A DNA stretch of 64,000 nucleotides from Lineus longissimus (lineage: Eukaryota > Nemertea > Pilidiophora > Heteronemertea > Lineidae), in assembly GCF_910592395.1 (NCBI RefSeq), contig NC_088323.1:10108001-10172000 (forward strand), written 5' to 3'. Position numbers and translations under genes: made by a program. Shown piece after piece: positions 28,372 to 62,334 of the stretch; position 1 is the stretch's first letter, and every line of letters begins with the position of its first letter. The notes beneath the pieces were generated by a model. That model saw only the letters and a program-made list of their open reading frames with translations, did not search any database and had not been told where the DNA came from.

Positions 28372-28481
28372 AGAGTGAGGGATTAATTAGATCCCGTGGA
28401 CCCTTCAAATTCCTCGAGCTTGGTCTTGTCGAGAATTTGTCTTGGGGACAACCAACTACAACGACTCATTGGGTACCCTAC

Positions 28482-31400: not shown

Positions 31401-33173
31401 TTTCATTAGAAGTTCCCTAAATTCTGTCTTTTGTGACTCTGTAAGGTGTGCACCATCTAAGTTCACATTAGGAGGATCGGTTTTGGGCTCACTAGTAGTG
31501 CCCTCTGTTTTTAAGGAAGTGGACTGCACATAATCCCTTGGTTCAATATCCTGTGTTGGTAAGCTGAGATTAGCAACTACATCGACTGGGGTCAAATCTA
31601 TGTGACCCAAATTAGTACACCTGTACAGTTTAATAGGCCTTGTTGTGGGATTGTAAATTTGGAAAGGAACCAAGTTGCCTTCCACTGTGGCAATACAATG
31701 TGCCCCCATTAGGTGACTTCTACCGACTAATCTTGGGTTTGGGGTTATTACTCCCTCCGCAGGTCCCGGCACACAACTATTTTCATTCTGTAGTTCGGCC
31801 CAAATTAGCTGCTGCTTCCCTGGTTGAAGCACAACTGTAGCACTTGCCCTAAGCTTAACTGCATCATTTAGATAGTGAATTTTCTGAATTTCTATTGGTT
31901 CACTGCCAGCTAGGGTTAAGGTACCATCACCAAAATCTATATGGGCCTTGTGTTCATTCAAGAAATCTAAGCCTAATACAAGATCATGGGATAGGTCCTT
32001 TGCAACATAGACTTCCTGCTCTAAATCAAAATGACCAAGTTTAAAAGGTAATATAACTGTACCCAGTAAGGGGAGGGCGGCGCCACTAGCAGTGACGGCC
32101 CTCTTCCCCCTTGTATAATCAATGGTGAGGGAAGCCAGATTAGATTGAGAATCAAGAAGCTGTTGCTTTATCAGAGAGATTGTCGCACCACTGTCAAGCA
32201 ATGCTTCAACCCTCTTCTTTCCCACTAGTGCTGGTAGTGAATTTGAAACTTTGGTCAAAACTCGAGGGTCATCGCCGTTGAAATATACTTCATTAGTATC
32301 ACCCGAAAGTGGCAAAGGATCATTGGTAGTGTCAAATGTTGCTTGAACATCTGGTTGGGTAACAGTGGGCGTTCTTTCAGTTTCCAACCCTGGTGGGGCG
32401 CACCAGCGTGGATTGCGGCCAAGCAACCATGACCTGAATGACCAGGATACGCAAGGATAATGGATCTCACTTAAGGATTTTATCCAATTCATTAAGCGTA
32501 TAATTCCCCGCCACACCGATTCATGGACTAATACACCCACTGCGACCAATATTGCCAATCCTACACCCATAGCGAAAACCACACAACCAACTCTACATAC
32601 AATATCCCTGACTATAAACATTATATAACCTAATCCACCAAGCAAAAACATAGTCCATACTATGCATATAATCTGTACATAATCACTGGGAGGTACTATA
32701 CTTGTGCTAGTATTGACCATTTCATTCTGCCCACTGGCATTCACATTTCCTAATTCATCATGGGTGCCTCTGTGCACGTCTGCACAAGGTGTTCCCATGT
32801 TTTTATCACAGGCCCCACTGGCTTCACTAACTACAGTTTCAACAATCTCATCATTGGATACTATGGATTCTATACCGTTGGAATCCTTACTCTCAATATT
32901 TGTCTCAACAATATCTGGCAGAACAGCTGATTCTGCTATACTCAAGGTTTGTTCGTTTGGACTTTGTACCGTAAGTCCACATACATTCTCAGTGCTTGGT
33001 TTTTGTGACCAGTTGTCATAGGGATTATTTGGTTGCTGGATGGCTACATATGGTGGCTTGGCAATAGTTACACTACAATGATTTTTAGGGTTTTCTCTGC
33101 TCACTTTCGCCCCCTCAAAATGAGCAGACCTTAGTTTGACCCCTGATTTTGACCTCCTAAGTTTGCTGTACAA
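28482..33173 (-). CDS. pol: Pol polyprotein (PR-RT-RH-IN), ends in cut chromodomain
   Basis: 1563 codons from an ATG inside the end of gag, in the -1 frame relative to gag (43-nt overlap). Unusual N-terminal part: residues about 166-216 are strongly hydrophobic (two or three membrane-like segments). Protease DSGA at 327-330. RT with YLDD at 776-779 in LCYLDDVIIF. RNase H with D925 and TDHSA (about 991-995). Integrase HHCC zinc site (HDHV...H, C1174, C1177) and D1207, D1267, E1303, the last two 35 residues apart. A GPY/F-type module (KLQHLWKGPYII) sits near 1440. The last 25 residues read like the first strand of a chromodomain (VFAIERIVAKRK...VQYKVK) and stop at TAG. Whether pol is made by frameshifting or its own start is not clear; no slippery site was pinned. 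Confidence 0.92.
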   Translation of the reverse strand: MYSKLRRSKSGVKLRSAHFEGAKVSRENPKNHCSVTIAKPPYVAIQQPNNPYDNWSQKPSTENVCGLTVQSPNEQTLSIAESAVLPDIVETNIESKDSNGIESIVSNDEIVETVVSEASGACDKNMGTPCADVHRGTHDELGNVNASGQNEMVNTSTSIVPPSDYVQIICIVWTMFLLGGLGYIMFIVRDIVCRVGCVVFAMGVGLAILVAVGVLVHESVWRGIIRLMNWIKSLSEIHYPCVSWSFRSWLLGRNPRWCAPPGLETERTPTVTQPDVQATFDTTNDPLPLSGDTNEVYFNGDDPRVLTKVSNSLPALVGKKRVEALLDSGATISLIKQQLLDSQSNLASLTIDYTRGKRAVTASGAALPLLGTVILPFKLGHFDLEQEVYVAKDLSHDLVLGLDFLNEHKAHIDFGDGTLTLAGSEPIEIQKIHYLNDAVKLRASATVVLQPGKQQLIWAELQNENSCVPGPAEGVITPNPRLVGRSHLMGAHCIATVEGNLVPFQIYNPTTRPIKLYRCTNLGHIDLTPVDVVANLSLPTQDIEPRDYVQSTSLKTEGTTSEPKTDPPNVNLDGAHLTESQKTEFRELLMKYRHAFANNDSELGRTSLIKHRIDTGDHPPIRSRPYRVGPVQRDITDEQIQEMVKRGIVSQANSEWASPVVLVKKPDGSHRFCVDFREINKISRTVDYTALPRIDDTLDSLGMNQPKYFSTLDLRSGYWQVELDGQDSRDRASFITYSGLYHFNVMPFGLKSAPSTFQRLMETVLRGLNWKICLCYLDDVIIFSNSYEQHLEHLELVFKALGDANLTLKPSKCFFFMKELKFLGYKVSEKGIMVDDGKTKAISDFPVPTSVTKLKSFLGLANFYRKFVKDFAKIAHPLNLLLRKGVSFDWGTEQQEAFETLKAKLISPPILVFPDFNEQFIVCCDCSNTGLGIVLAQVRNGKECAIAYDGRALNKAEMSYSTTEKEALSVICALKKWKSYLVGPKKFKIITDHSAVRYIMGMKNPTGRLARWILYLQQFDFEIEHRPGKIHTNADGLSRRDWDTTVLAISDNTVDLARQQQTDPELAPIIGYLANKELPNDDKLARRILLQSDSYTLDQNQLLYKLLQKSQAGDAEDELRRLVIPKCLQSEVIAAAHDHVLSAHYGQQKTYNKVKVRYYWSGMFADIEHWVKSCASCNTRKTPKANRRAPMQPLEPVAAPFERLAVDCVGPIHTSLKGNKYLVVFTDFATRWPEAFAVSSITAPVIADLLFKQIICRHGAVKVLLSDRGTNFLSKLVEALCKLIDTEHHKTSSYHPQCNGLCEKFNGTLIQGISMYVDSNQLTWDEFVEPVLFSYRSTPCDSTGYSPFMLLYGRQPKLPIDVALLAQWDTGLEPQQHLEQIVEKLKIIQPKSVNNLLAAQTKMKVQHDKRLRSHRFQVGDKVWLYVPAHKKHLTRKLQHLWKGPYIIHQQVPQTQGTFRLKSLQGNKILAPVHASRLKPYTDSAGRPIGCAVPVAQDDPPPDADDSIPDPVNEPPHLPDKGVVSDTPPPSQVNKVRKQRVFAIERIVAKRKTKKGDDVQYKVK

Positions 33174-34462
33174 TTTGCAGCCCTATGTCCAAAGTTGGAG
33201 CACCTATAACACTGCATATTTGCATCATTGGGCCTGTTCTGACCTCTGTAGTTACCACCAGAATTGTAACTGTTGTAGGTAGGCCTACCACCATCATTTG
33301 CATAATTGTTGGGCCTAAACTCATTTGCCTGATTGGGCCCTGAATAAGGTCCATTGCCTGAAGGGTAATCATTAGGCCTATAACCTTGGGCGTGGCGCCC
33401 TTCCCTTGGAAGCGGTTCAAGAGCAGTACAGTACGTGGCTGTATGTCCCACCCGCAGACAACGTCCACAAATAGGGTCACCATTTGTAGTTCGTGAATTC
33501 CTAAAGTTGGTTTTAGGCCTAGCCCCCTTGTCATCGTTATTACTACCACCCTTTGAAGCTTGTTGTTTGACCAAATCTGATACCGCACAGACCAAATCGT
33601 CTACTTTCCTCTCTAATCGGCCCCTCCCACTATCTGCATCAACTGACATGACTTGGGTTTTACCCTCTGGATAGAGAGAATCCCCAAGCCTAGCGCTAGC
33701 CATCGCTTGCTCGACCGATGCCACATTCTGACTGAGGACAAAGTTTTTTAAAGCTGGCCTAAGGCCGTGAATGAACCCAACAAAGTGGTCCTCTGGCTGT
33801 TTCCCAGCCCTGGCGCACATGCGCAACACCGTCTCAATATAATTTTCCAAAGGTTCATGAGGAACTTGGATTTTTGTGTGGAGCTCTTGGCTCTTGACAA
33901 ACTTTAAAGTGTTGGGATTAAATTTCTCCCTCATTCGTATACACAACCGATCATAATCAGTCCTTAACTCTTCAGGCAAGCTATGAAAGAAATCAAATGC
34001 AACTGAAGACAAAAAATTAGGCATGGCTTTACATTTGCTCTGAGCTTCCCAACCGTTGAAATCAGCGTATGAGTCAAAATGTTTGAGAAAGTCTTCTAGA
34101 TCTTCCGTGATCCTCCCTGAATACGATGCGGGCTTGTTTACGGACCCTCCAACTTTATTGTTACGGCCCCCTGTGCCCAAGGCAGCAATGGCCTCGGTTA
34201 ATCTTTGAATGTCTGACATTGTAGTGTGGACGAGGTGTTCCCTATTAAACTGGTGAATGGTCTCTATAAAATGATTTCGTCTAGCAAGATTTGGAGATTG
34301 TGCAGACGCCGCCGGTGTTCTAAACTCAAATTCGGGACTGTTTGCGCGACCTGAGGGTAATGTACTGGTTATGACGTCTGAATCATTGAGAGTCCGATTT
34401 TCTGCTAATATATCGAACTCCTGCTCACTAACATCATCAACCCCTACTTTAACGGTGGTCAT
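33131..34462 (-). CDS. gag: Gag (capsid/nucleocapsid)
   Basis: 443 codons from an ATG 38 bp inside the 5' LTR boundary. A Gypsy-type capsid region spans roughly residues 105-260 (ITEDLEDFLKHF ... FNPNTLKFVKSQELHTKI ... FIHGLRPALKNFV). A Gly/Asn-rich basic nucleocapsid follows with two CCHC knuckles, CGRCLRVGHTATYC and CYRCSNFGHRAANC, the second almost at the C-terminus. The 3' end overlaps pol. Confidence 0.9.
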   Translation of the reverse strand: MTTVKVGVDDVSEQEFDILAENRTLNDSDVITSTLPSGRANSPEFEFRTPAASAQSPNLARRNHFIETIHQFNREHLVHTTMSDIQRLTEAIAALGTGGRNNKVGGSVNKPASYSGRITEDLEDFLKHFDSYADFNGWEAQSKCKAMPNFLSSVAFDFFHSLPEELRTDYDRLCIRMREKFNPNTLKFVKSQELHTKIQVPHEPLENYIETVLRMCARAGKQPEDHFVGFIHGLRPALKNFVLSQNVASVEQAMASARLGDSLYPEGKTQVMSVDADSGRGRLERKVDDLVCAVSDLVKQQASKGGSNNDDKGARPKTNFRNSRTTNGDPICGRCLRVGHTATYCTALEPLPREGRHAQGYRPNDYPSGNGPYSGPNQANEFRPNNYANDGGRPTYNSYNSGGNYRGQNRPNDANMQCYRCSNFGHRAANCTANLGGQNQGSN

Positions 34463-34481
34463 AATAAAAGCTGGTACCTAC

Positions 34482-37383: not shown

Positions 37384-37960
37384 TTGTTAATTTTAGTTCC
37401 GATCTGATTCTTGACTTGGCCACCAGGGAGCCAAAACTAAAAACAAGAAAAGTGCCATAAATCTTGAACTAATGGCCATATCATTGCCAAAAATGTTATC
37501 ACAGGTTCTTCTTCTGAGAATGCACAACATAAACCCTGGGTTTCAATTTGACCTACCTTTCAAAAACGTAGAGGTCAAGCCGCGTAAATTGTCGGTTGGG
37601 GTGTAACTAGGGTACGTTTCATAACTGCCAATGCTATGGACTTGTGTATACATGACCGCCTGGGTCAGCTGACCTCTGACACCAAATTGCATTACTATCT
37701 GATTCACGACTTAGCCAACTAGGGGACAAAACAAAAAACACAATCTCCTGAACTAATGACTATATCACATCTCACTTTTTACCAGAGGTACTTCGAATTT
37801 AAAAGGATATATGATATACTCCCCTGGTTATTCATTTGACCTTCTTTTCAAGGTCACTGAGATCAAATTGCACAAATTGGCCTGTGTCTGTTAATCATTC
37901 ACAAACTTCTCCAATAACTCCCTCAGAAACTGGCATATTTTTGTATCATCAAAACGTTTT
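37384..37960 (+). repeat. AGCTCACC-family core, two diverged ~300-bp monomers
   Basis: Word order CGATCTGATTCTTGACTTGGCCACCAGGGAGCC, ...TTTGACCTACCTTTCAA, ...GTAACT..GG(T)ACGTTTC, then the same series again with mismatches. No terminal hairpins preserved. Confidence 0.65.
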
Positions 37961-43412: not shown

Positions 43413-44710
43413 TTTATTTATCAAACTTTATCGAGGGTTATCGAATCGAATGGATGTGTCGATCGTCGGGGCGGATTGATATGTGGTTAGGTTGTGCGTC
43501 CAAGGCGATTAGGTCATTCAGTTCGTTTGAGAAAGATCATGATCATGAAGATGCGTGTTGTGTTATCATAACTGGAAAATAAGTTGAAGTTATTATTATT
43601 ACTACGATTCTTACATGAGTAAAAAGTAGACGTTTTAAGCAACACAATGATGTTACTCCCATAAAAAAACTGTCAATTCTCCTTACCACTCACAGAAGCC
43701 AAGCCATTGCTGTTAAGTTATGCAGGGACTTAATCAATTACTTGCACTCCATGTGGGGTGAATAACATTACCTTTTGAACGGCTGGCTGTAGGGGGATGA
43801 TTGGAACAGCCGGTATACCTGCTGACCTGCTGAACCGAGGTTAATGTTATTTTCAATCCACGATTGCAGGTCACCTGATTTTCGAGATTTCGCGGGAAAT
43901 GAAATTGTAAACAAACGCATGTGTGCAGTTCAAATGTAAACAAAAATGTATTTTGGTACTTTTGGTTGCTGGACTTGGGTTTTCCCGCAGTCAGGAGCTG
44001 GATCAAATTGGTGGTCTATTGTGCTGTTTTAGTCAGAGGTAGCCCTTGATTATGAAGGGATTTTCAAATTAAGGTGACCATAGTCTTTTATGTGCTCAGC
44101 TCACCACAGCTTTCAATACTTGATGTATCTGAAGAGGCGCGCGGAACCTGACATGGCCTTACCAAGGAGCTGCTAACTTTGCCTTTTTGGCTGAGACATT
44201 GCTTCATGTAGGACTAGGAGGAGCACGCATACATCGTGCCATTTCAGGGTCCGAGTCTGTGGACAATTGGTTTGATTAATTTGTCTCTTCGATATTGCTC
44301 CTTTATTGCATTAGATTTTCATCGCAATTCGATCTATTCAAGATATAGCCAATTTGAACCTGTCTGCGCCAAGGATAGATTGGTTCCAGATCGACTCACT
44401 ATGACTAGGAATACGCAGTAGAGCACAATGTCATGAAAAACGACCCTTTGTATTGTAAATTCCAATCACCTGCAGAACAGGTCAATTTCTCTCAATAAAA
44501 TTAATTTTGTTGACTCCTGTAATCTCTACCTTATTAAAAAAAAAAGAAAGTGGTGCTAGTCCCAAACTGGTAATTTCTATTTATTTTGACCTCTGTTAAA
44601 TCATGATACCTCTCAATTACAGACAGCATTTTGTATCCTTGTGCTGTACAACCCAGCCTGGACATACCACAGTTGTCCATGGAGAAGTCTCATCCTCTCT
44701 GACACTTTTT
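43413..44710. other. No recognised gene
   Basis: Only short frames without motifs; no transposon ends identified. Confidence 0.4.
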
Positions 44711-45812
44711 TAGCTCACCTCTTAGCAGAGGTGAGCTTATCCCATACCGTGGCGTCCGTCGTCCGTCGTCGTCGTCGTCGTCCGTCGTCCGTTAGCAGGG
44801 CACGTTTCGTAACTGTTAGAGCTATTGAGTTGAAACTTGGTACACATGTACCCTTATGTAATGACACCTGGGAGACTAAGTTTCGGTCCGATTCGTTTCA
44901 TGGTTTGGCCACCAGGGGGCCAAACGTTAAAAGTGAAAATATGCAATATCTCCCTTAATAGTAGTCGGGAAATTTTGAAAAAAATATGGTAGGTACTTCT
45001 AGCAAAGGTGCATCATATATCCTCCGGGTTTTTGATTTGACCTCCTTTTCAAGGTCACAGAGGTCAAATGGTGTAAATTAGCCGTTAGGATGTAACGATG
45101 GCACGTTTCTAAACTGCAATGACTATTGATACCAAATTTGGTACACATTTACCCCTTAGTCAGGTGATCTCAGGGACCAAAGTTTGGTCCAATATGATTC
45201 ACCACTTGACCACCAGGGGGCAAAATCCAAAAACCTTAAAAATGTGATTATTCCTTAACTTCTTGCCCGATTGCCACCAATTTGATATCATGGGTACATC
45301 TAACCACCATACAGTATATGTCACACAGGTTTTTAATTTGACCTTCTTGTCAAGGTCACAGAGGTCAAGTGGCGTAAATTCGCCGTCAGGCCGTAACTAT
45401 GGCACGTTTCTTAACTACAATGACTATTGATCACAAATTAAGTACACATGTACCCCTTGGTCAGGTGATCTCAGGTACCGAAGTTTGGTGCGATCTGATT
45501 TGCCGTTTGGGAGCGGGCCAAATCCTAAATTCTTCAAAATGCCATTATTCCTAGTAATGACTTGCCCGATTGGCACCAATTTTATATCATAGGTACATCT
45601 AATTCTAACAACCATTCAATGTGTCACCCGGGTCTTCTTTGATTTGACCTACTTTTCAAGTTCACAGAGGTCGAATGTACTGTAAATTGGCCATTTTGGG
45701 GAAATTGTAATTGCTTGGACCTACATCAAACCTAACACTACATGACACAAGACCATGCTCTTTATCCATCTTTCCTCCACATGAGGTGAGCACAATGGCC
45801 CTGGCCATTTCA
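44711..45812 (+). mobile_element. AGCTCACC-family element (Helentron-associated-like)
   Basis: Starts TAGCTCACCTCT; AGCTCACCTCT/AGAGGTGAGCT is a perfect 11-bp stem with loop TAGC. A GTC/CGTC microsatellite (44758-44793) follows, then about three ~300-bp tandem monomers (ACGTTTC near 44803, 45102 and 45402; 'CACCAGGGGGC' in each). The 3' hairpin AATGGCC/GGCCATT and terminal TTTCA close it. Very similar to 58498-59607. Confidence 0.85.
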
Positions 45813-45999
45813 TTTCTGTAAAGCTACTGATACAACATGCTGAACTAGGGATATCTTCCGTTGCCTCCTCTAATATTTACATACCATGGCTGATTAGTTC
45901 AATCATATTTCATCCAGCTGGCAGCTCTGCATTGGAAATTTTAGTGGTATAACGTGTTCTCTTGACCTTCAAACAGTAGTATAAAGCCGATATTTACTA

Positions 46000-46470: not shown

Positions 46471-47833
46471 TAATCCATATACTGGTGCAATACAATGAAA
46501 AGACTCAGTTATTTGATGTTAATCCATAAGTGCGCACCAACGGCCTAGGTAGCTTGCTTGGTAAAGACTGAATGTGCGTACCTACCAGGAATTCTATATG
46601 GTGGGAAACCCTTGATTAGAGATAGCAGAAATCCCTGAACAACATCCAGGGGTTTCTAACTGGCTGGAAAGTGAGGTTGTTGGACGGTACGAATGATTTT
46701 TATACTAATATGCAAGTATCTACTAGGGGGTCCTCCCCTGAACATTTTGAAAGTTAGTTGCGCATTGATGCGTTCTGAGGCATTTTTCAACGTCATACGA
46801 GCTTTCAGAATTACCTGATAAATCGTCCATGTGGTCATTTTCGTAGTCCAAAGGAGGCTTTTGGTACTGAACTATAACCAGGCCTCTCACTGAAGAGCGA
46901 GAACACAAATTATGCATATTACTGAAAAGAGGGGCACCCAGATTAGCGGGCTATGATGTGATTGGCTATCGCCTAAGGCAGCTTTCCAAATGACATCACG
47001 CTACTACAAACACTGTATTTGGAAAGCAGGCCGCACTTTGTTATGCTCGAGCCACCTTGTCATTCTGTGATGCGACAGGATTATTACGTTTATTGCTGAA
47101 TACTCCAGGAACATGACACAATGTTCTTTGAGCAGCGGAATATCTTTTTTTCTGGAATAGTTTGGCTATCAAAATGTGTAAAAATAGCATCGCAAAGTGA
47201 GCATAACCCCTCAACCCACACATTGTGAAGGTGGCATGATAGTAAAGCTGAATTAATGAACTACGCGCATCATTGGCTCACCGTAGGGGAGTCTATACAA
47301 CAATGCAGTGTACGTCATCATCGTGGTATCCTATTTCAAAAACAGTGGCACGTTTCTTAACCGCTAAAGCTATGAAATTGAAACTTTGTACACAGGACAC
47401 CCCAGATCAGGTGACCTCTGACAATGCAATGAATTTCAGTCCGATCTGATTCTTGACTTAGCCACCGGGGTTGAGAGGTGGAAACCTAAAAAGTGTGATA
47501 TCTCTCTTATAAGTGACTTGTTTTCGATAACATTTTTAGGGTAGGTTCTCCGAGCAAGGATACATCACATATCTTACAGGTTTTTGACTTTACCTAATTT
47601 TCAAGGTGACAGGTAAAATGGCATAAATTGTCCGTTTGAGTATAACTATGGCTCGTTCTTTTCCTGCTTAAGTTATGAACTTGAAATTTCATGTACATGA
47701 CTCCCTGCGTCATATAACCCCCGACACCTAGGGCGTATTCGAATCATTCGTTCGTGTCAACCCGGGTGTGAGATATGGGGTTGGTCGTTCCGAACAAGGA
47801 AGTGCGCGTTCGGGTGTTGACATCAGTGGCAAG

Positions 47834-50648
47834 ATGGCGGCGAATGTAAACTTCGATGCGCTGGTGGCCTATGAAATGATGGATTCCGACGAAGAAGATG
47901 ATGAAAATGATGATATATGTATTATAGCCATTGTTCTGGCAAGAGAGAAGAGGGCAAGGATGCGAAATTTCGCCGAGGAGGTGGTGCCTTCCATGTCTTG
48001 GAAGGAATTCAGCAGCCATTTCAGGTGGGCTCTTCTGCAAAATCATCGTCCTGCCTCATGCATGCCTGCACAGAACATGATCATGTACATACATGTACAC
48101 CACTGCACTGCATTGCCTTGGTTTCATTGCATTGCAGCATATGCACCAATTCTGGTTCTGGTTCTGGTTCACGACATGCAATGCAATGATGCATAGCACT
48201 TAGGCCTATTCACACACATAGTAGGCATATCATTATTATAAGGCGCTTTTAAAAAATAGTCAATGCCCCAAGCACTTCAAACATGGTCAACAGGCGGCAG
48301 GCCACACTGACACACACACCAGACACTGCCTTTTTTGCCGTTCTGACCTACCACTCTAAGCCTATACCAGGGATGAGAAAGAAGACGATCGATTAGGGTA
48401 GGGGGAAGGGTGCCAGGGGGAAGGCACCCTCCTCCCTAACCAGTCTAGACTATGCCATCTCTGAAAGCAGAGAAAACGATATGGCTGCCAAGTGGGATTT
48501 ATAGTTGGCCCAACTTCAAGAAGTCCTACTCCCATGAAAAAAAGTACTACTCGGACAAATTTTTTATTTTCCCCACTACATTGACATAATTCTATCCTTT
48601 CTGACTGGTTTTACAAACAGTTCTCCTGTATGATGGCGCCATCCCCTGGCTGATGTTCTAAACTGATCCTCAATGAGACAATGGCCAGTAGTCGGATCAC
48701 GATACATGATGATTGATGAGGTCTACATTCGACTTCCAAAGACATGAGTGAAACAAATTGGATGACATTATACTGTTCCTGTGGATCATTCGTGCACTAT
48801 TCTGTTTTACTTGTATTTGACACTTTCCATTTATTTCATTTTCAGGATATCACCAAGGACATTTGACTTCATTCAGTCAGTTGTTGAAATGGACCTACTT
48901 CCGAAAGCACCCGGTGGCCCTTTAGATGCGATCCTGCCAACGAAACAAATTATGGTCTTCCTTTGGTACCTAGCGAACCAGGAGGTGATGCGCAGCGTTG
49001 CTGTCAAGTTCGGTGTTTCTGAGAGCACAGTCCACAAGATTGTCCGGAACGTGGCAGAAGCACTCATCAGAAGGAAGAAGCAATTCATCAGGTGGCCAAC
49101 ACCAGAACGGAGACGTGAAATCTCTGCATCATTTCAGGTAGGGTTACTTTCCATTTAAGGGTCAACCTATAGGCACAGCCAGGTGAAAGTGTACCAAGTG
49201 CATTTTAGTTTGTATTTTCATGTGCTTGCGTCACGCTGCAAGCACAGTGAAAGGATGCAATATCTGTTGAAGAATCTGATAATCGAAAGTGTTTATTTAG
49301 AGAGGAAGAATGAAGTTGGTACACAGTTTGCAGGCTGTGCCTAGTGTTTTCACATGACAACAAATACAAATTAGTGTTTCTTCCAGATAAATAATTCCAG
49401 TCCAGACAAACTGTTCAGAACAATCTGTGACTTAGTAAGGGAAGTTGTCAGTTGAAGTCCGATATCATACTACATAACTCTAGAATTAAAGAAAAATAGA
49501 AATATTCATTCTGACACCAGTCCACCCTTTTTTTTGTTAATATCCGAAAGCCCTGTTCTTCTATTTGCACCACCTTCTCAAGGGGGACAGTATTCACTTC
49601 TACACTTGCATAAACAATTGGCAGTGCCGGCTCAAAATTTACTTTATCTTACCCAGGAATGAGTCTTTCTAATTCTTTCAACCTGTCAAGATATCTAACT
49701 AGTATGCTCTATCTTTACAGGAATCCAGTGGTCTTGTCGGTGTTGTAGGTGCCGTTGATGGCTCTCATATTCGCATAATGAACCTGCCAGGTGGTGAAAG
49801 TGATTATTATAACAGGAAAAAGTTTCCATCTTTGCAACTACAGCTTGTTGCCGATGACAGGCTCCTGATCATCAATACCAATGTTGGTTGGCCAGGTTAG
49901 TAAAGATTACTGAGTATGTGTAGTTAGTAGCATGTAGTAGACTAGTACTAGCATAGAATATTGGTGCAAAGTTCGTTTCATTGTTTTTCTGAGCGGTAGA
50001 AAAAATTGCTTGCAAAAATTTAATTTGGATCAAAACCATGCAGCAAATTCAAGTCAAAGAGGTGTGAGTCCTACAGTCAAATCTGGAAATTGTCTTTACT
50101 CTGTCATAAGAAATCATACTGGATTTTCCTTGAGCAAGTGCCAGTTTAGTAGTCAATTTTGTCCTATGATGACTAAATAACATTTCTGTTCTATTGCAGG
50201 TTGTGCTCATGATGGCAGAGTTTTCCGAAATAGCCAGTTGGCAGCTGATGCCGATGCCGGGAAACTTTTTTCGCAGGATGAATTCCTGATAGGAGATTCT
50301 GCGTACCCGCTCCGTACATACCTGATGGCTGTGATGAAAGAGAATCGTCTTCTCTCAAGGGAGGAGAGAGTGCTGAACAAAAAACTTAGTTCATGTCGGC
50401 AGGTTGTTGAGCGGGCAATTGGGTTGATGAAGGGACGCTTTCGCAGACTGCGTGAACTCTACTCTAGAAAAGTGAAAGACATGTGTAAATTGATCACTTG
50501 TGCAGCCATCTTACACAACATGTGTATCTTAACAGATGATGAGGTGGAGGTCTACGTTGAAGAAGAGGAGGTGAACAATTTCGACAATGTATATCACTGC
50601 CCTGCCCCAGCAATTGCACTGCGAAGGAGGCTGCTGCAATATTGCTAG
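47834..50648 (+). CDS. Harbinger DDE transposase (HARBI1-like nuclease)
   Basis: Four exons, 47834-48024, 48846-49137, 49721-49895 and 50200-50648, all GT-AG and in phase: 368 codons from an ATG about 100 bp inside the TIR. An acidic start (MDSDEEDDENDD) leads into SSHFRISPRTFDFI. A helix-turn-helix-like part (VAVKFGVSESTVHKIVRNVA, about residues 120-140) follows. The DDE_4 nuclease has D in GAVDGSHIRI, D in FLIGDSAYPL and E in CRQVVERAIGLMKGRFRRL, plus GCAHDGRVF and AAILHNMC. No stop or frameshift, length like vertebrate HARBI1 (about 350). In Harbinger elements the nuclease needs the Myb-like partner for nuclear entry and end recognition, and that gene is broken here. Confidence 0.93.
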
Positions 50649-51251
50649 GCTGCATCAGTCGTCAGGTGTTCAGGATATTCACAGATCAATGGGGGGGGGG
50701 GGGGTCACTGTGCTATTTCCTCCCCAGAGAGAACTGGATGATTTTTATCTTGTTAAATGTTACTAGCAGTTGACCCGTTTGATGCCGGTTGGCTGGCACT
50801 GATGAATCTTGTAAAATGTAAACAAATTACCATTGTGTTGCCATATGGCAATGATTTCACGACGCACCGCAACCACAGTTACCATGATTCCCATTGTTTC
50901 CTTCCTCGTGACGCAATTATTTCATGACGTCATGAGCCATTGACCATTCACGCAAGTAGATTTATTCACACAGCGGCGCCACTGTCCTGAAGTGCGGGTG
51001 TGGGACATCATGTATCTAAAAATCGTCTGCTAGAACATACAGGACAACAACGTCGGCGGAGACAGTTGTGACATTTCATTGCAGACGAAGTAAACGTCCT
51101 CTTCTTCTCGATTTACGTACTTTACTTCAAAAAAGTCAGTTTTAACACTACTGCACAAATATAGAGTGGTCATAATGTTCCATTTGGATAGAGATTTGAC
51201 GGACTGATTTGGAAATTCATTCCAACCATGCAACTGTTTCAGAAATGAGAA
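50649..51251. other. Transposon interior, non-coding
   Basis: 3' flank of the transposase gene with a G14 run at 50691-50704. From about 51011 the sequence (AAAATCGTCTGCTAG...) recurs in the flanks of the tandem duplication at 53650 and 56182; copy 1 has about 100 bp (51090-51185) that the later copies lack. Confidence 0.6.
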
Positions 51252-53505
51252 TGAAACGGCCAGGGGCCATTGTGCTCACCGTATACATCTTTTAGTAGGC
51301 AGGATCATGCTTAGTTTAGAGGTGAATATGGTGAACACAATCAGGCATGAAGACTTTTTTTAGATGTGTATTGATGTCAAGTAATAAGACAGGGCAGTAT
51401 ATATAAGTTTATGATCCAACCAATAATTGTCTATGACATCAACAAGATCAATATCGTGTGATTGCTAAGAGTCCCTGCAATAAAAAATTCATCGAAAAAA
51501 AGTCATTAATAAGCAAGATATTGCATGTCCTACTTTTTCAGTTTTGACCCCCTGGTGGCCAAATCAAGAATCAGATGAGGCCAAAATTCGGTGTCAGAGA
51601 TTATCTGATGTAGGGGGTTACATGTACCAACTTTCAAGTTCATAGCTTCAGCAGTTAAGAAACGTGCCATAGTTACACTCTAATGGCCAATTTACGCCAT
51701 TTGACCTCTGTGACCTAGAAAAGGAGGTCAAATCCAAAAATCGTAGGACGTGGTGTATCCTTGCTAGAAGTCCCTGCCATAAAAATTTTATCGAAAACAA
51801 TTCACTCAAATAAGCAAGATATTGCACTTCTTCCTTTTTCCATTATGGCCCCCTGGTGGCCGAATAAAGAATCAGATCAGGCCAAAATTCGGCATCAAAG
51901 GTTATCTGATGTAGGGGGTTATATGCACCAAGTTTCAAGTTCATAGCTTTACTGGTTAAGAAACGTGCCATAGTTTACACTCCAACGGCCAATTTACGCC
52001 ATATGACCTCTGTGACCTTGAAAAGTAGGTCAAATTGAAAACCCGTAAGACATGTGATGTATTCTTCCTAAGAGTACCTACCATAAAAATTTTATCGAAA
52101 ACAAGTCACTTATAAGCGATATATCACACTTTTTAGATATCCACTTTTGGCCCCCTGGTGGCAAAGTTGAGAATCAGATCAAACTGAAATTCAGCACCAG
52201 AGGCTATGTGATATAGGGGGTTATATGTACCAAGTTTCAAGTTCATAGCTTTAGTGGTTAAGAAACGTGCTATAGTTTACACTCTAACGGCCAATTTACG
52301 CCATATGACCTCTGTGAACTTGAAAAGTAGGTCAAATTAAAAACCCGTATGATATAAGATGTATATTTGCTATGAGTACCTACAACACAAGTTTCATCGA
52401 AAACAAGTCACTAATAAGCGAGATATCACACTTTTTAGATATCGACATTTGGCCCCCTGGTGGCCAAGTTGAGAATCAGATCAGACCGAAATTTAGTGTC
52501 AGAGGTCACCTGACCTAGGGGGTGCTGTGTACAAAGTTTTAAGTTCATAGCCCTAGCGGTTAAGAAACGTGCCACTGTTTTTTAAATAGGATACGACGAC
52601 GGACGACGGACACTGCGGTATTACATAAGACTCCCCTACGGTGAGCCAAAAATCAAGAAAATGTAAGATACAAGTCAGAAAAGACAAAAGGGAAAAGATA
52701 AAAAATAATAAAATAAAAAAATATTTTTGGCCGTCCTGACCGGGGTTTGAACTCACGACCTTTGGATTGCCACAACACGAAAAACACAAAACATGCAATT
52801 TCGGCCATATCTGTGTCTGCGTTGTGACCTCTGTGACCTCGACAAGTACGTCAAATTAAAAACCCATATGATATATGATGTATCCTTGCTATGAGTACCT
52901 ACCACAAAAGTTTTATCGAAAACAAGTCATCAATAAGCGAGATATCACACTTTTTAGATATCCACATTCGACCCCCTGGTGGCCAAATTGAGAATCAGAT
53001 CGGACCGATATTCAGCACAAGAGGTTATCTGATATAGGGGGTTATATGTACCAAGTTTCAAGTTCATAGCTGTGGCGGTTGAGAAACGTGCCATAGTTAC
53101 ACTGAAACAGCCAATTTACGCCATTTGACCTCTGTGACCTTGAAAAGTAGGTCAAATTAAAAACCCGTATGATATATGATGTATCCTTGCTATGAGTACC
53201 TACCACAAAAATTTCATTCCAAACAAGTCATTAATAAGCGAGATATCACACTTTTTAGATATCTACATTCGGCCCCCTGGTGGCCAAATTAAGAATCAGA
53301 TCGGATCGAAATTTAGTGTCACAGGTCATCTGACCAAGGGAGTCCTGTGTACAAAGTTACAAGTTCATAGGCTTAGCGGTTAAGAAACGTGCCACTGTTT
53401 TTGAAACAGGATACGACGACGACGACGACGACGGACGACGACGACGACAGACGACGACGGACGACGGACACTGCGGTATTGTAAAGACTCCCCTACGGTG
53501 AGCCA
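51252..53505 (-). mobile_element. AGCTCACC-family element, copy 1 of the duplication
   Basis: Minus orientation: 5' end TGGCTCACCGTAGGGGAG at 53505, 3' end CGTTTCA at 51252. The core has tandem ~301-bp monomers (AAACGTGCCATAG at 51660, 51961, 52263 and so on). A second internal 5' end at about 52605-52645 shows one element joined to or nested in another, with a tRNA-like fragment (52726-52800) between. A GAC-rich microsatellite is at 53414-53470. Confidence 0.85.
52726..52800 (-). repeat. tRNA-derived fragment, copy 1
   Basis: On the minus strand CAAAGGTCGTGAGTTCAAAC continues as CCCGGTCAGGACGG; GTTCAAACC is an exact box B (GWTCRANNC). The acceptor-side half resembles the T arm of a tRNA followed by an A/T-rich tail, as in a 5'-truncated SINE or tRNA pseudogene. 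Repeated at 55257-55331. Confidence 0.55.
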
Positions 53506-53782
53506 AAAAGCTCCTGGGTGTCATGACATGCACGATGTGTCTTGCCTCTGCATTTTTGTACTCAGGCATGTCAGAGGGTTTTCAATTTTCATATCATTGA
53601 AGAAATAATTCAGTCCAATCTACAAGTATATCAATCACATCATTTATTTAAAAATCGTCTGCTAGGACACACAGGACAACGTCGGTGGAGACAGTTGTGA
53701 CATTTCAATTTTCATTGCATAGAGATTTGACGGACTGATTTGGAAATTCATTCCAACCATGCAACTGTTTCAGAAATGAGAA

Positions 53783-56036
53783 TGAAACGGCCAGGGGCCA
53801 TTGTGCTCACCGTATACATCTTTTAGTAGGCAGGATCATGCTTAGTTTAGAGGTGAATATGGTGAACACAATCAGGCATGAAGACTTTTTTTAGATGTGT
53901 ATTGATGTCAAGTAATAAGACAGGGCAGTATATATAAGTTTATGATCCAACCAATAATTGTCTATGACATCAACAAGATCAATATCGTGTGATTGCTAAG
54001 AGTCCCTGCAATAAAAAATTCATCGAAAAAAAGTCATTAATAAGCAAGATATTGCATGTCCTACTTTTTCAGTTTTGACCCCCTGGTGGCCAAATCAAGA
54101 ATCAGATGAGGCCAAAATTCGGTGTCAGAGATTATCTGATGTAGGGGGTTACATGTACCAACTTTCAAGTTCATAGCTTCAGCAGTTAAGAAACGTGCCA
54201 TAGTTACACTCTAATGGCCAATTTACGCCATTTGACCTCTGTGACCTAGAAAAGGAGGTCAAATCCAAAAATCGTAGGACGTGGTGTATCCTTGCTAGAA
54301 GTCCCTGCCATAAAAATTTTATCGAAAACAATTCACTCAAATAAGCAAGATATTGCACTTCTTCCTTTTTCCATTATGGCCCCCTGGTGGCCGAATAAAG
54401 AATCAGATCAGGCCAAAATTCGGCATCAAAGGTTATCTGATGTAGGGGGTTATATGCACCAAGTTTCAAGTTCATAGCTTTACTGGTTAAGAAACGTGCC
54501 ATAGTTTACACTCCAACGGCCAATTTACGCCATATGACCTCTGTGACCTTGAAAAGTAGGTCAAATTGAAAACCCGTAAGACATGTGATGTATTCTTCCT
54601 AAGAGTACCTACCATAAAAATTTTATCGAAAACAAGTCACTTATAAGCGATATATCACACTTTTTAGATATCCACTTTTGGCCCCCTGGTGGCAAAGTTG
54701 AGAATCAGATCAAACTGAAATTCAGCACCAGAGGCTATGTGATATAGGGGGTTATATGTACCAAGTTTCAAGTTCATAGCTTTAGTGGTTAAGAAACGTG
54801 CTATAGTTTACACTCTAACGGCCAATTTACGCCATATGACCTCTGTGAACTTGAAAAGTAGGTCAAATTAAAAACCCGTATGATATAAGATGTATATTTG
54901 CTATGAGTACCTACAACACAAGTTTCATCGAAAACAAGTCACTAATAAGCGAGATATCACACTTTTTAGATATCGACATTTGGCCCCCTGGTGGCCAAGT
55001 TGAGAATCAGATCAGACCGAAATTTAGTGTCAGAGGTCACCTGACCTAGGGGGTGCTGTGTACAAAGTTTTAAGTTCATAGCCCTAGCGGTTAAGAAACG
55101 TGCCACTGTTTTTTAAATAGGATACGACGACGGACGACGGACACTGCGGTATTACATAAGACTCCCCTACGGTGAGCCAAAAATCAAGAAAATGTAAGAT
55201 ACAAGTCAGAAAAGACAAAAGGGAAAAGATAAAAAATAATAAAATAAAAAAATATTTTTGGCCGTCCTGACCGGGGTTTGAACTCACGACCTTTGGATTG
55301 CCACAACACGAAAAACACAAAACATGCAATTTCGGCCATATCTGTGTCTGCGTTGTGACCTCTGTGACCTCGACAAGTACGTCAAATTAAAAACCCATAT
55401 GATATATGATGTATCCTTGCTTTGAGTACCTACCACAAAAGTTTTATCGAAAACAAGTCATCAATAAGCGAGATATCACACTTTTTAGATATCCACATTC
55501 GACCCCCTGGTGGCCAAATTGAGAATCAGATCGGACCGATATTCAGCACAAGAGGTTATCTGATATAGGGGGTTATATGTACCAAGTTTCAAGTTCATAG
55601 CTGTGGCGGTTGAGAAACGTGCCATAGTTACACTGAAACAGCCAATTTACGCCATTTGACCTCTGTGACCTTGAAAAGTAGGTCAAATTAAAAACCCGTA
55701 TGATATATGATGTATCCTTGCTATGAGTACCTACCACAAAAATTTCATTCCAAACAAGTCATTAATAAGCGAGATATCACACTTTTTAGATACCTACATT
55801 CGGCCCCCTGGTGGCCAAATTAAGAATCAGATCGGATCGAAATTTAGTGTCACAGGTCATCTGACCAAGGGAGTCCTGTGTACAAAGTTACAAGTTCATA
55901 GGCTTAGCGGTTAAGAAACGTGCCACTGTTTTTGAAACAGGATACGACGACGACGACGACGGACGACGACGACGGACAGACGACGACGGACGACGGACAC
56001 TGCGGTATTGTAAAGACTCCCCTACGGTGAGCCAAA
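53783..56036 (-). mobile_element. AGCTCACC-family element, copy 2 of the duplication
   Basis: Same structure as 51252-53505, offset by 2531 bp, including the internal second 5' end and the tRNA-like fragment. The microsatellite differs in length (about 55945-56000). Confidence 0.85.
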
Positions 56037-56315
56037 AAGCTCCTGGGTGTCATGACATGCACGATGTGTCTTGCCTCTGCATTTTTGTACTCAGGCATGT
56101 CAGAGGGTTTTCAATTTTCATATCATTGAAGAAATAATTCAGTCCAATCTACAAGTATATCAATCACATCATTTATTTAAAAATCGTCTGCTAGGACACA
56201 CAGGACAACGTCGGTGGAGACAGTTGTGACATTTCAATTTTCATTGCATAGAGATTTGACGGACTGATTTGGAAATTCATTCCAACCATGCAACTGTTTC
56301 AGAAATGAGAAAAAA

Positions 56316-58328
56316 GCTCCTGGGTGTCATGACATGCATTCAATTATTATTTCACCACAAAGAGCTGCTTCTTCCAGCAGATATGAGACAGCTACCGGGG
56401 CGGGGACTATTTCTTTATGGGGCCTTATTGTTCAGCGTCTCCAAGGAATTCTATTTTTAGAGTCCAATGGGGGGGGTTGGGGGGGGGCCTTCCCCCCAAT
56501 GTACTGACTAAAACCTGTCACTTTCAGAGAACGGGGGAGGGGGTTTGGGGGACTCATCCCCCAATGTACTGGCTATATATGTCAGAAGGACGGGGGTTTG
56601 GGGGGCTCCCCCATGTCAAACACTTGTGTGAGTTCACTAGAGATTGCTCTTTACATATTAACTGTTCTTGGACACATTTTGGCATCTTTCATCTGGTACT
56701 GTAAGATCTTGCATGTCTTGTCACGTCATTATCCTGAGATTGTGATAATATAGTATCAAACTGGCTATCTATCTTATGTTATATTTCTAGGACCCCCCCC
56801 CCCCCCCGGACATGTCCATGGGGGTATCAGGACACTTCCCCCGGACACTTCCCCACTGGCAAAGTCCCGTAAAACACCTGACCCATGGCTCATAGTGCTG
56901 CCATCTTCGAAAAACTGGCAGAACTGAACGAAACTGCGAGTTAGTGAGTGGAGCAAGTGTGGAAGCAACTGGTTTCAAGGGTTGTTCCAAAATATCAACA
57001 AAAGCTATGGCACAATCGCTTTAGAAAAGTATGCGAGGACATGAGAAATTTTTTTCCAGAAGAAGACGTCCTCACCCTAAAAAAATTGTTTCTCATGTCC
57101 TCGCATGCTTTTACTACTCCCCCTATGTGCCACCATAACTGAGTTTGTTGCCAAGGTTAGTCCAAGCAGGCCTGGATGTGCGGCTGTCTATTCCTTAGGA
57201 AAGTGTGTCACTGCTAGTATGCCAGATCAGGTTAGCGTCCAAGGCTGGACCAAGATAACGCCAGTGGAGAAACTATAACAAGTCCTACTGGAGAGGACTG
57301 TGTACATGTATGGGACCATAGCAAAATTATGTCGAGGCCAAGAGAACTAAAAATTTTAGTTTTGGGGGAGGGGAGGGGTAAAGGGTTACTTTAATTTTGC
57401 TACAGCCCCTAAGAGCACCAGATTTCCTCAGGATAAGGCCAGTGGAGAAACTGGAACATTATCCAAGTCGCCAGTCCTAGAGGGCCGTACAGGACAAGGA
57501 GCACTTCCAACATTTTCATAAGCCTACTAACTCGCCACACTTTAGGGGGAGGGGCTAGTGATTGTATTGTAACAACAATTCTGTACACTAGTAGTAGTAG
57601 CTCATAAAGTTAATGTACAAAATTTGGGGGACGCCTGATGAAGATGTGCTTTTTGCAGACTTGTGAAAATGTTCTGCCACTATTCCTGGGGACACCGAAT
57701 CTCCATAAAGATGCATTCCTGTTGAGTCCATATAGAGAACATTTTGGGGAACTATGAAAATTAAAGAATCAGGATTTTCCAAAATGTATTTTATTGAAAT
57801 AAAACGAAATAAAGTACAAAATTTACAAAAATATATGTTTCAGAATTTGTAAAACCTGAGAACACTGTTGTGTAACTGTAAAATCAAATGTTCATTTTAT
57901 ATACAAGAATAAGTCTAGCAGATTGCCTTTCAAAAAAATATGAACAGTAACAAGAATAACTCTTTAGCTATTTCCAAACAATAACAACATTAACAACAAT
58001 ACATGTAAAACGTTTGCTTTTACCCTTTCAAATAACATCAACAGTAACAAGAATAAGAGCCCGCCCATAGTTAACACTTCCAAAAGAATACTAATTGTAC
58101 AATGGGGGGGGGGGGGGATACTCCATAATACGCTTTGCCATTTTCTATAAATACTGATCAATTACTGCCATCGCACACAAAAGCATTCAGTGCCACATGT
58201 CTCTCAAATGAAGGCAGAGAAATGACATGACTGAGAGCCCCCTCCCTTTCCCAAGGAGTGAAACATTGTACAGTGTACCCAGAGGGTATAACCTCAGCTA
58301 TTACACATTGTATTGGCATTGCGCCATC
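56316..58328. other. Transposon interior without genes; G-rich tandem motifs
   Basis: 56460-56610 has three diverged copies of a unit with GGGGGTTTGGGGG and its complement CCCCCAATGTACTG. A C15 run is at 56793-56807 and a G14 run at 58104-58117. Around 57240-57270 and 57430-57460 a GCCAGTGGAGAAACT unit occurs twice. AATAAA on the minus strand at about 57792 could serve the Myb-like gene. Confidence 0.5.
57027..57111. repeat. Foldback, ~30-bp arms
   Basis: TATGCGAGGACATGAGAAA then a T run pairs with an A run, then TTTCTCATGTCCTCGCAT; the arms are almost perfect around a 23-nt loop. Confidence 0.8.
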
Positions 58329-61048
58329 CTAATTCTGTTTCTTTTCAAATATATCCAAAAGTCGAACGAACCTCTGCATTTTTTCATCATGACGCTTACT
58401 TCGTGACTCTTCCTGTTTTTCTGTATATTCCTCAAGGAACTGAACGGTTGAAGATTTACCAGGAGTTTTACTCGGTGTCTTACATTTCTTTCCTTTTTAG
58501 CTCACCTCTTAGCAGAGGTGAGCTTATCCCATACCGTGGCGTCCGTCGTCCGTCGTCGTCGTCGTCGTCGTCCGTCGTCCGTTAGCAGGGCACGTTTCGT
58601 AACTGTTAGAGCTATTGAGTTGAAACTTGGTACACATGTACCCTTATGTAATGACACCTTGGAGACCAAGTTTCGGTCCAATTCGTTTCATAGTTTGGCC
58701 ACCAGGGGGCCAAACGTTAAAAGTGAAAATATGCAATATCTCCCTTAATAGTAGTCGGGAAATTTTGAAAAAAATATGGTAGGTACTTCTAGCAAAGGTG
58801 CATCATATATCCTCCGGGTTTTTGATTTGACCTCCTTTTCAAGGTCACGAGGTCAAATGGTGTAAATTGGCCGTTAGGATGTAACGATGGCACGTTTCTA
58901 AACTGCAATGACTATTGATACCAAATTTGGTACACATTCACCCCTTAGTCAGGTGATCTCAGGGACCAAAGTTTGGTCCAATATGATTCACCACTTGACC
59001 ACCAGGGGGCAAAATCCAAAAACCTTAAAAATGTGATTATTCCTTAACTTCTTGCCCGATTGCCACCAATTCGATATCATGGGTACATCTAACCACCATA
59101 CAGTATATGTCACACAGGTTTTTAATTTGACCTTCTTGTCAAGGTCACAGAGGTCAAATGGCGTAAATTCGCCGTCAGGCTGTAACTATGGCACGTTTCT
59201 TAAATGCAATGACTATTGATCACCAATTAAGTACACATGTACCCCTTGGTCAGATGATCTCAGGTCCTGAAGTTTGGTGCGATCTGATTTGCCGTTTGGC
59301 CTCCAGGGAGGGGCCAATCCTAAATTCTTCAAAATGCCATTATTCCTAGTAATGACTTGCCCGATTGGCACCAATTTTATATCATAGGTACATCTAATTC
59401 TAACAACCATTCAATGTGTCACCCGGGTCTTCTTTGATTTGACCTACTTTTCAAGGTCACAGAGGTCGAATGTATTGTAAATTGGCCATTTTGGGGAAAT
59501 TGTAATTGCTTGGACCTACATCAAACCTAACACTACATGACACAATACCATGCTCTTTATCCATCTTTCCTCCACGTGAGGTGAGCACAATGGCCCTGGC
59601 CATTTCATTTCTGTACCTTTGTTGTGTTGGGTTTGGGGTTGTTTCTTCATGCTCATCATTTTCATCATCGTTGGAGTCATTTTGATTTCCAAGTGTATCT
59701 AGTATAAATGCTGGGTTGGTAGAGTCCTTATTGCCGTATAACTGATTAAGTTCCTCAAAGAATTTACAGTTTTCTCGGATCATTACCTGTTTTGCTGTTG
59801 TGGTCAACCGTTTCCATGTAAACTCTCTTCACTGCCTTCCACTTGTTAGCACATTGCTCCCATAAGCACTTCAAACCACTTGCTACCATCTCCCTGGCAA
59901 TTTTGTCCCATAGCAGTTTGTGAGTTCTGGTTTTTCGAAATTCTTCATCACTGTCAACGCGAATGTTAACAAGCATTTTGGCATACTTGTCTGGCCATAC
60001 CATTGGGGCTGCTTTCGCTGGGGTAGGGGTTTCATGGTGGGCTGTCACTGTGTCACCACATGCTGGTACTGAAAAAGAGAGTGAACAGTGTACATTTTGT
60101 AAGTTTGCGCACGTTGTTCGAGTTCCTCTGTGATTGGGGCCACCTGGAATCACTCAAAACTATGTCATACTATTGTCACCATCATCATTGTTGTAACTCT
60201 TAAGAAAATCAAAATAAATGCAATACCAATAGCTTCTAAATGATTCAAATATGGCTTGCTGACTAGAAATCTGTACATGGACATGTATTATACATGTATT
60301 CTTCAGGCTCAATAATGCCCTCTAAAACACATTGTGCACTGTACTCTTGTAAATTGAATTCTAATTGGAAGAAAATGCCATTGAGGACACATAATTTGTC
60401 AGATATTGCCCACTTTTTTTGCATATACATGTACATGTAGAATTGTTTTTTATTCATCTAATATATGAAGCCCTCAAAAGCTATGTTAAAGTCTGACATG
60501 TGACTGTTACTGCTACTTACATGTACATGACTTAGACTTAACAGCAAAAACATCTTCTTGATCAGCCGATGATATTTCCAAGTATGTCGATCCTTTTCAA
60601 ATTCTGTATTATGTCTTGGTCTGTAAATTAGAAAGAACCACAATTTTATGATATAAAAAGACAATTAAAACGGGTTCTGAACATTATCAATGAAGGCCAA
60701 AATACAAATTTTATACAATTCCTATTGCATGATTGGAATATGAAGTTGCAGGAAAAATACCTGCATGACAATATTTTTGGAAGAAGGGATACTCCGCAAG
60801 CTTTGGTTTGCATTGTTCGATGAAGTTCAGTTGTCTGTGTATTTACAGTCCAAACATCTCATGTTACATGCCCAAAACTTGAGGGATTTTACCAGCATAG
60901 GGCCATCCATCATCATAATGAAAATGCCTGTTGTATGGGAAGAATCAAGTCTGAAAATAAATAAATCGGACCTACCCTTTCTCTGAACAGCATTATACGT
61001 CGGTAAATCCACATTGAATGTCACAAGTTGGCCATCACCGAAGTCCAT
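58329..61048 (-). pseudogene. Harbinger Myb/SANT-like DNA-binding partner, disrupted
   Basis: Minus-strand gene with exons 61048-60976, 60592-60521 and 60068-59608, then 58497-58329 behind an insertion. All junctions are GT-AG and in phase 1. Exon 1 starts MDFGDGQLVTFNVDLPTY. Exon 3 carries a Myb/SANT-like domain (about 60010-59790): LLWDKIAREM, CLWEQCANKWKAVKR, with the spaced tryptophans, ending DHNSKTGND. Near 59770 a one-or-two-base shift moves the frame (CKFFEELNQLYG continues in the next frame). An AGCTCACC-family element (58498-59607) then interrupts codons after QQRYR; beyond it the reading frame resumes in register and ends at TAG 58331-58329 after a Lys/Glu-rich helix. In this superfamily the partner binds transposon ends and imports the nuclease. 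Confidence 0.82.
58498..59607 (+). mobile_element. AGCTCACC-family element inside the Myb-like gene
   Basis: 1110 bp, closely similar to 44711-45812: same 11-bp 5' hairpin, CGTC microsatellite, about three core monomers and 3' hairpin with TTTCA. Removing it leaves a run of seven T on the plus strand and a continuous Myb-gene frame, so it inserted between T and T with no target duplication. Confidence 0.9.
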
Positions 61049-61972
61049 CTCGAGTTCACGATAATAGCTGAAGATGGAATGGAAGATAAAAATAATATAA
61101 AAAACATGAAATTGAAAGAGTAGTAACACTAACAGAAAGAAGGTAGGCCTAGCCAGTGTGATCAACAGTAGTATTCACACAGACACAGGGCGGGGAGAGA
61201 ATAGACGGGTCACCATGATTTGAGTCTTGACAGGAGGGTATCGGGTAATAACAAACATAGGCCGCACGTGCATAGGCCTTTTGTAGGAAGATGGCGGCTC
61301 CATTGTTCTCTGGACATACGCCGCCTGGGGAGGGTCCGAGACATCATTTTACATGCATACCCAAATACATTATGGGCCAAGAGGAAAGCTGCTTCCCCAA
61401 AAAGCGCTCCTTTTATCTGGGGCCAACCCTCTCTCTAGCCTGAGAAAGCTAAGTAAAGGTGATTGATGGATGAGCCCAAATATCAATGCCAATTGGGTAA
61501 ATTCAGCAGCCAGGTATCACCTGTCCTACACCTAGAGGGCACCTAGGCCTACATGACCTAGGCCTACACGCAGTTGATCCCTGCACATGCATAGTGCATT
61601 GTGCTGTACACTACAGTAATTGGTAATATGTAGGCGCACAATATTTGACGGTTTTTACCAAATTGCTGCAACATCAAATCAGGTAACGGGACTAAAAGTT
61701 ATATCATGCTTCTGTACATAGTTTATTGCCATTTTAACTACTTATTCTCATGAGAAGAGCGTCATTAACAAGATTAATTGGTGAAATAAACGAAATTTTC
61801 ACATACGGTTCAAATGTGTCCGCCATCTTGGAACCTGTCAACACTCGCTGTACCCTCCAGAAAGTCGGGAGTGACAAGAACGCGTTCTCGTGTCGGTTCT
61901 TGGCTGTTCGGAACGTTACTCTCGTGTCGAGTCGACCCGAGTGTTGCCAAGAACAGGGATTCGAATACGCCC
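61049..61972. other. Right end of the Harbinger, non-coding
   Basis: Upstream region of the Myb-like gene and right terminus. CCTAGGCCTACATGACCTAGGC at about 61540 holds two TAGGCCTA words; no other gene seen. Confidence 0.6.
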
Positions 61973-62334
61973 CTAATTTCGGGCTGATGCGATTCTCGAC
62001 TTGGCTACCAGGGGGTTAAAAATAAAAAAAGGAAAAAGTGCAATATCTCTTTTATTAGTGACTTGTTTTCGATAATATTTTTATGATAGGTACTCCAAGC
62101 AACGATACATCACTTGTCATTCCGACTTTGGTTTGACCTATGTACTATACATAAAGAATGTTTCTTAACCATGATGAATTCCTAACCACCAAATATCTAG
62201 ACGTTGAGCACAATGGCCCCTGGCCGTTTCATTCTTTCATCGGATATAGCCGAAAGTAGTTTGTGAGAAAAAGTGACCATTTTGGCTGATGAGCAAAAGT
62301 TCCAGAGTACGCAATGGCACCAGAAGACCATCAT

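Follow-up and report, generated by a model that had tools for sequence, protein, structure and literature searches.

A PIF/Harbinger DNA transposon of Lineus longissimus spans positions 47731–61972 (14.2 kb) of the window, by which we mean the whole 64,000-nucleotide stretch of DNA that was analysed. The element carries two convergent genes, an open transposase gene on the plus strand and a broken Myb/SANT-like gene on the minus strand, and it displays the features of its class: a DDE_Tnp_4 domain with D-D-E, the Myb/SANT-like second gene (broken in this copy), terminal inverted repeats (TIRs) and a 3-bp target-site duplication (TSD).

The element inserted into a 301-bp repeat

The left TIR, GGGCGTATTCGAATC, is perfect over 15 bp (47731–47745, plus strand), and the right TIR is its exact inverse over 15 bp with zero mismatches (61958–61972, minus strand). 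The two TIRs are bordered by copies of the target-site duplication CTA at 47728–47730 and 61973–61975, respectively. A scan of the whole window with GGGCGTATTCGAATC at up to 3 mismatches returned two sites, both perfect, where 0.71 would be expected; in shuffled controls, 15 of 100 gave two TIR sites, a figure that holds for the tolerance of up to 3 mismatches and not for a perfect pair.

When the flanks were joined with a single CTA, the resulting sequence aligned across the junction to copies of an approximately 301-bp repeat elsewhere in the window. In particular, there were 13 such alignments, of which the best showed 76.6% identity over 342 columns (E = 9e-63); owing to the tandem duplication of repeats within the element, several of the 13 are duplicates of one another. 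In six aligned copies of the 301-bp repeat the alignment passed across the junction without a gap. The empty, pre-insertion site can therefore be read, with the left flank (47560–47727) forming part of the target 301-bp repeat and the right flank (61976–62140) forming the remainder. These findings are direct evidence for a clean insertion of the Harbinger element, with a 3-bp duplication, into one 301-bp repeat, and they bear out the claim of the first-pass annotation that the ends are exact, with perfect 15-bp TIRs and CTA on both sides, to which the recovered target site is now added.

Just inside the TIRs, the 11-mer CGTTCCGAACA occurs perfectly at two sites only in the window, one per element end (47786–47796 on the plus strand and 61905–61915 on the minus strand), and the motif GTGTTGMCA has six perfect sites in the window, three of which lie within the two 150-bp ends. 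Both are candidate binding sites for a protein encoded by such an element; these motifs were picked by eye after the ends had been viewed, so that the site counts do not amount to a test of binding.

The interior includes a 2.53-kb tandem duplication that contains arrays of the 301-bp repeat (51184–56243, made up of 51184–53714 and 53715–56243), the two copies of which differ by 6 substitutions in 2529 positions. Arrays of the 301-bp repeat occur outside the element too, and those within it were presumably added after the Harbinger insertion. Taking together the 301-bp arrays, the second copy of the 2.53-kb duplication and an insertion in the Myb gene, some 6 of the 14.2 kb are probably not original Harbinger DNA, so that the element probably measured no more than about 8 kb when it inserted. 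Thus, the 14.2-kb extent that had been given for this Harbinger holds as a span defined by its ends, and less so as a measure of the element proper. Immediately beyond the tandem duplication, at 56244–56330, lies a third, shorter copy of the duplication junction; having no repeat array, this copy resembles an unoccupied site of the 301-bp repeat family. Also inside the Harbinger element is an imperfect palindrome of approximately 90 bp (57025–57112), perhaps a small hairpin element.

The transposase gene is open and shows no clear decay

The transposase gene comprises four exons on the plus strand: exon 1 (47834–48024), exon 2 (48846–49137), which encodes a helix-turn-helix region that falls below the Pfam cut-off, exon 3 (49721–49895), which encodes the first D of the DDE set, and exon 4 (50200–50648), which encodes the second D, the E and the stop. 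The splice borders are GT..AG, and the spliced sequence of 1107 bp encodes 368 amino acids with zero internal stops, a product 100% identical to that of the NCBI gene model LOC135500138 of Lineus longissimus. Pfam assigned DDE_Tnp_4 to this protein (E = 9.7e-33), together with a match to HTH_Tnp_4 that lies below the family cut-off. Residues D174, D224 and E290, which we take to be the catalytic triad of a DDE_Tnp_4 transposase, are invariant in an alignment of 12 transposase proteins. The open four-exon transposase with its DDE residues, proposed at first from the letters of the sequence, is therefore upheld.

We compared the protein with a set of 89 proteins of 300–460 amino acids, drawn from the 120 listed of 210 matches (31 were dropped for length). 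It departs from the others at 3 of the 36 columns that are at least 90% conserved among them, which ranks it 69th of 89, the median being 1; at one of the three positions, residue 264, the Harbinger-type protein of the sea star Patiria miniata (P0002) carries the same residue, as judged by eye. The transposase is thus without clear decay, yet it is not unusually conserved. P0002, which is 59% identical across 97% of the transposase's length, is the closest named relative among the 120 listed of 210 matches, and it falls in the same small clade as the Lineus protein in a tree built from 38 hand-picked rows; the comparison with P0002 is at the level of the protein. Horizontal transfer was considered as a reading of this grouping and rejected as unsupported, because nemerteans are poorly sampled and an identity of 59% is not high.

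Searches of the PDB with the transposase sequence gave only weak matches (2 and 5), none of them credible as a relative. An AlphaFold model of the transposase had a mean pLDDT of 76.1 and a pTM of 0.77, and a fold search of the PDB with this model returned Mos1 in the top three rows, followed by Tn5 and piggyBac, with TM-scores of 0.15–0.33 by query length and no match at E ≤ 0.001.

The Myb/SANT-like partner gene carries three lesions

On the minus strand, and convergent with the transposase gene, we detected a Myb_DNA-bind_4 domain (PF13837, E = 1.2e-10). We propose that the gene begins at an ATG at 61826 and has three short exons ahead of the domain exon: a putative exon 1 (61807–61826, with the donor GTATGT), an exon 2 (60976–61067) that matches the protein P0123 with 55% identity over 29 amino acids, and a putative exon 3 (60521–60592), the acceptor of which is uncertain (60592 is in frame, 60620 is out of frame). 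The proposed Myb ATG and the start of the transposase gene each lie in a copy of CAAGATGGCGG, which occurs in the window only once more, at 36100 (three sites in all). The exon that encodes the Myb/SANT domain lies at 59640–60068, and the C-terminal part of the gene, placed by protein homology, lies beyond a repeat insertion, at 58329–58491 on the minus strand, the homologous proteins matching at 58332–58496.

The coding sequence is disrupted in three places. Matches to homologous proteins shift frame along the domain exon: the domain lies in one frame to approximately 59773 and the next part in another. Relative to P0121, an annotated Myb protein of Lineus that continues through both places, the copy in the window has two frame changes, one near 59770 and a second before the insertion. 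The insertion itself, a repeat of approximately 1.1 kb at 58494–59620 with borders ambiguous by several bases, interrupts the coding exon and cuts through a run of basic residues, KKGKKCK in P0121, that may serve as a nuclear localisation signal. (The idea of a 7-bp duplication around the insertion was given up, since the repeat ends in sequence similar to the target and the border can be placed only to within several bases.) The partner gene had been described at the outset as convergent and broken, and the domain match, the two frame changes and the approximately 1.1-kb insertion all agree with that description.

P0121 (LOC135498410) is encoded on another contig, at a locus that appears to fit chromosome 13. 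Between the pieces of the Myb gene in the window and P0121, 10 of 168 residues differ, 7 of them in one 9-residue patch, which leaves 3 differences in 159 residues outside it. The patch lies near the start of P0121, and by eye it is P0121, not the copy in the window, that departs from the other homologues there. As annotated, P0121 has 182 amino acids, and its Pfam match, which begins only at position 19 of the profile, leaves out the N-terminal part of the Myb domain. The short protein and its altered patch indicate that this copy has either damage of its own or a poor gene model. The patch matches DNA of the window in another frame, which suggests that the P0121 copy, too, may contain frame changes.

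Recent damage is enough to explain the open transposase frame

The age of the damage can be gauged from two proxies, without a clock. One is the 3 of 159 residues by which the Myb gene differs from P0121 outside the patch. The other is the repeat inserted in the Myb gene, whose sister copy at 44707–45820 differs from it by 27 substitutions in 1117 aligned bases (2.4%; 97% identity) and 3 indels, or approximately 1.2% per copy if both changed alike; the sister copy bounds the age of the insertion only on condition that the two derive from a single recent source. On the assumption of 0.05–0.15 indels per substitution, a neutral frame of 1107 bp would stay open with a probability of 0.15–0.39 at 1% divergence, 0.06–0.24 at 1.5%, 0.02–0.15 at 2% (0.06 with 0.10 indels per substitution), and at most 0.06 at 3%. 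The small number of changed residues, the 2.4% divergence of the repeat and the plausible survival of a neutral frame together indicate that recent damage is enough to account for an open transposase. Two points tell against such a neutral reading: the survival probability drops at higher divergence, and the lesions lean to the Myb gene (3 of 3). By chance, all three lesions, that is, the two frame changes and the insertion, would fall in the Myb gene with p of approximately 0.07, a value that uses both genes and an approximate Myb length of 789 bp.

Selective retention of the transposase is accordingly compatible with these numbers, which nevertheless do not call for it. The first-pass annotation had left a choice between recent damage and retention of the nuclease; the former suffices (3 of 159 residues, 2.4% and a survival probability of 0.06–0.39), and the latter is not needed. 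With damage so young, selection need not be invoked for a transposase that is still open while its partner is dead.

Discussion

We consider it likely that this element is a young, ordinary and recently active PIF/Harbinger transposon, the open frame of which is owed mainly to the short time since the Myb gene was damaged. As we envisage it, the element, with its two genes convergent from opposite ends, would have inserted by cut-and-paste into a CTA inside a 301-bp repeat. By analogy with the zebrafish and rice systems, the DDE nuclease would cut at the inverted ends, and the Myb-like protein would bind DNA close to these ends and assist the nuclease in reaching both them and the nucleus. After insertion, in an order that may have differed, the Myb gene would have gained its frame changes and its repeat insertion and the middle of the element would have filled with repeats, while the transposase frame would owe its open state chiefly to the shortness of the time elapsed. 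The copy, presumably once self-mobile, would now be immobile unless another copy supplied the Myb protein.

The dependence of the nuclease on a Myb-like protein, which had been asserted at first for Harbinger systems in general, agrees with published relatives: passages of PMC9710019 and PMC2836001 report that both proteins are needed for movement in the rice and zebrafish relatives, and that the Myb-like protein of zebrafish Harbinger3_DR binds near the ends and carries the nuclease into the nucleus. In yeast, co-expression of the rice ORF1 and TPase proteins brought no clear change in localisation (a passage of PMC2836001), which indicates that the role in nuclear import is not general.

A first alternative, which we regard as unlikely, is that its own transposase and a Myb protein supplied by a different copy, for instance the P0121 locus, still mobilise this copy in trans, with ongoing transposition keeping the frame open. 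That mPing is moved in trans by the rice Ping and Pong proteins (a passage of PMC2836001) provides a precedent, and P0121 is a close Lineus Myb protein encoded elsewhere and so a possible supplier. Among the 120 listed of 210 transposase matches, the only protein named as Lineus is P0001 (many matches are nameless), and for a 207-residue piece the only Lineus-named protein among the 120 listed of 149 matches is P0202, at 39%. Hence no second close Lineus transposase is named among the matches listed, as this alternative would have it, although the listings cover annotated or predicted proteins within the length limits and would therefore not show pseudogenes or copies that lack annotation. However, the annotated P0121 is without the N-terminal part of its domain and differs from the rest of the family in one patch, and selection on a transposase that acts in trans is expected to be weak.

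Still less probable, in our estimation, is an arrangement in which two half-broken copies sustain one family, this copy giving the nuclease and a copy on a different chromosome giving the Myb protein, such that transposition in trans keeps the nuclease frame. As a two-gene nemertean Harbinger whose empty site can be read and of whose genes one is open and the other broken, the element offers a clean case in which to look at complementation between split copies.

We think it very improbable that the host is retaining the transposase as a gene of its own while the Myb gene decays, as would befit a domestication like that of HARBI1 or the insect PIF-derived genes. Domesticated PIF genes have lost their transposon ends, whereas the Lineus element retains its own: its TIRs and target duplication are free of mismatches, and the damage appears to be recent. 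What speaks for domestication is the open frame, together with the transposase-only domestications reported in insects (a passage of PMC9710019). Least probable of all is that the frame changes in the Myb gene are sequencing errors and the true damage smaller, since, even though by eye the changes look small and one adjoins a short run of A, the assembly was made from HiFi reads with Illumina polishing (a passage of PMC8593623), the approximately 1.1-kb insertion disrupts the exon whatever the frame, and the copy in the window departs (D to V) at 1 of 43 columns that are invariant in five homologues.

We return to the element as a young Harbinger and to its place among known systems. It is like the animal PIF/Harbinger elements (zebrafish Harbinger3_DR and the teleost Harbingers) in its DDE_Tnp_4 transposase and separate Myb/SANT gene, its TIRs and its 3-bp TSD; unlike them, it has a broken Myb gene and is swollen to 14.2 kb by other repeats. 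Its perfect TIRs, at 15 bp, are shorter than the 25–50 bp given as usual for Harbingers in a passage of PMC9179366. Rice Ping/Pong/mPing likewise relies on two proteins, ORF1 and TPase, which move a non-autonomous element in trans (a passage of PMC2836001), but is a plant family. HARBI1/NAIF1 and other domesticated PIF proteins share the nuclease family (HARBI1 names appear among the transposase matches listed). Among the literature matches listed, there was no description of a nemertean Harbinger, and the titles and passages of PMC9179366, PMC9710019, PMC2836001, PMC9921582 and PMC8593623 do not treat this element.

Other repeats and retroelements in the window

The 301-bp repeats belong to a dispersed family marked by tandem units of approximately 301 bp, ACG-rich microsatellites and GGTGAGC-like ends, with members at 44707–45820, 58494–59620, 51184–56243, 37388–37891, 47346–47730 and 61975–62235. 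One copy of this family was the target of the Harbinger element, and another broke its Myb gene. Elsewhere in the window, the possible remains of a retroelement lie at 9685–13604, with an open reading frame at 9685–11901 that has an aspartyl-protease-like domain and a second at 12540–13604 that matched no Pfam family. Another retroelement, at 25846–34477 on the minus strand, has reverse transcriptase, RNase H and integrase (open reading frame 28482–33182), is Ty3/Gypsy-like by domain order, and continues with an 846-amino-acid open reading frame that matches the Baculovirus F protein (PF12259, E = 8e-14), an envelope-like gene.
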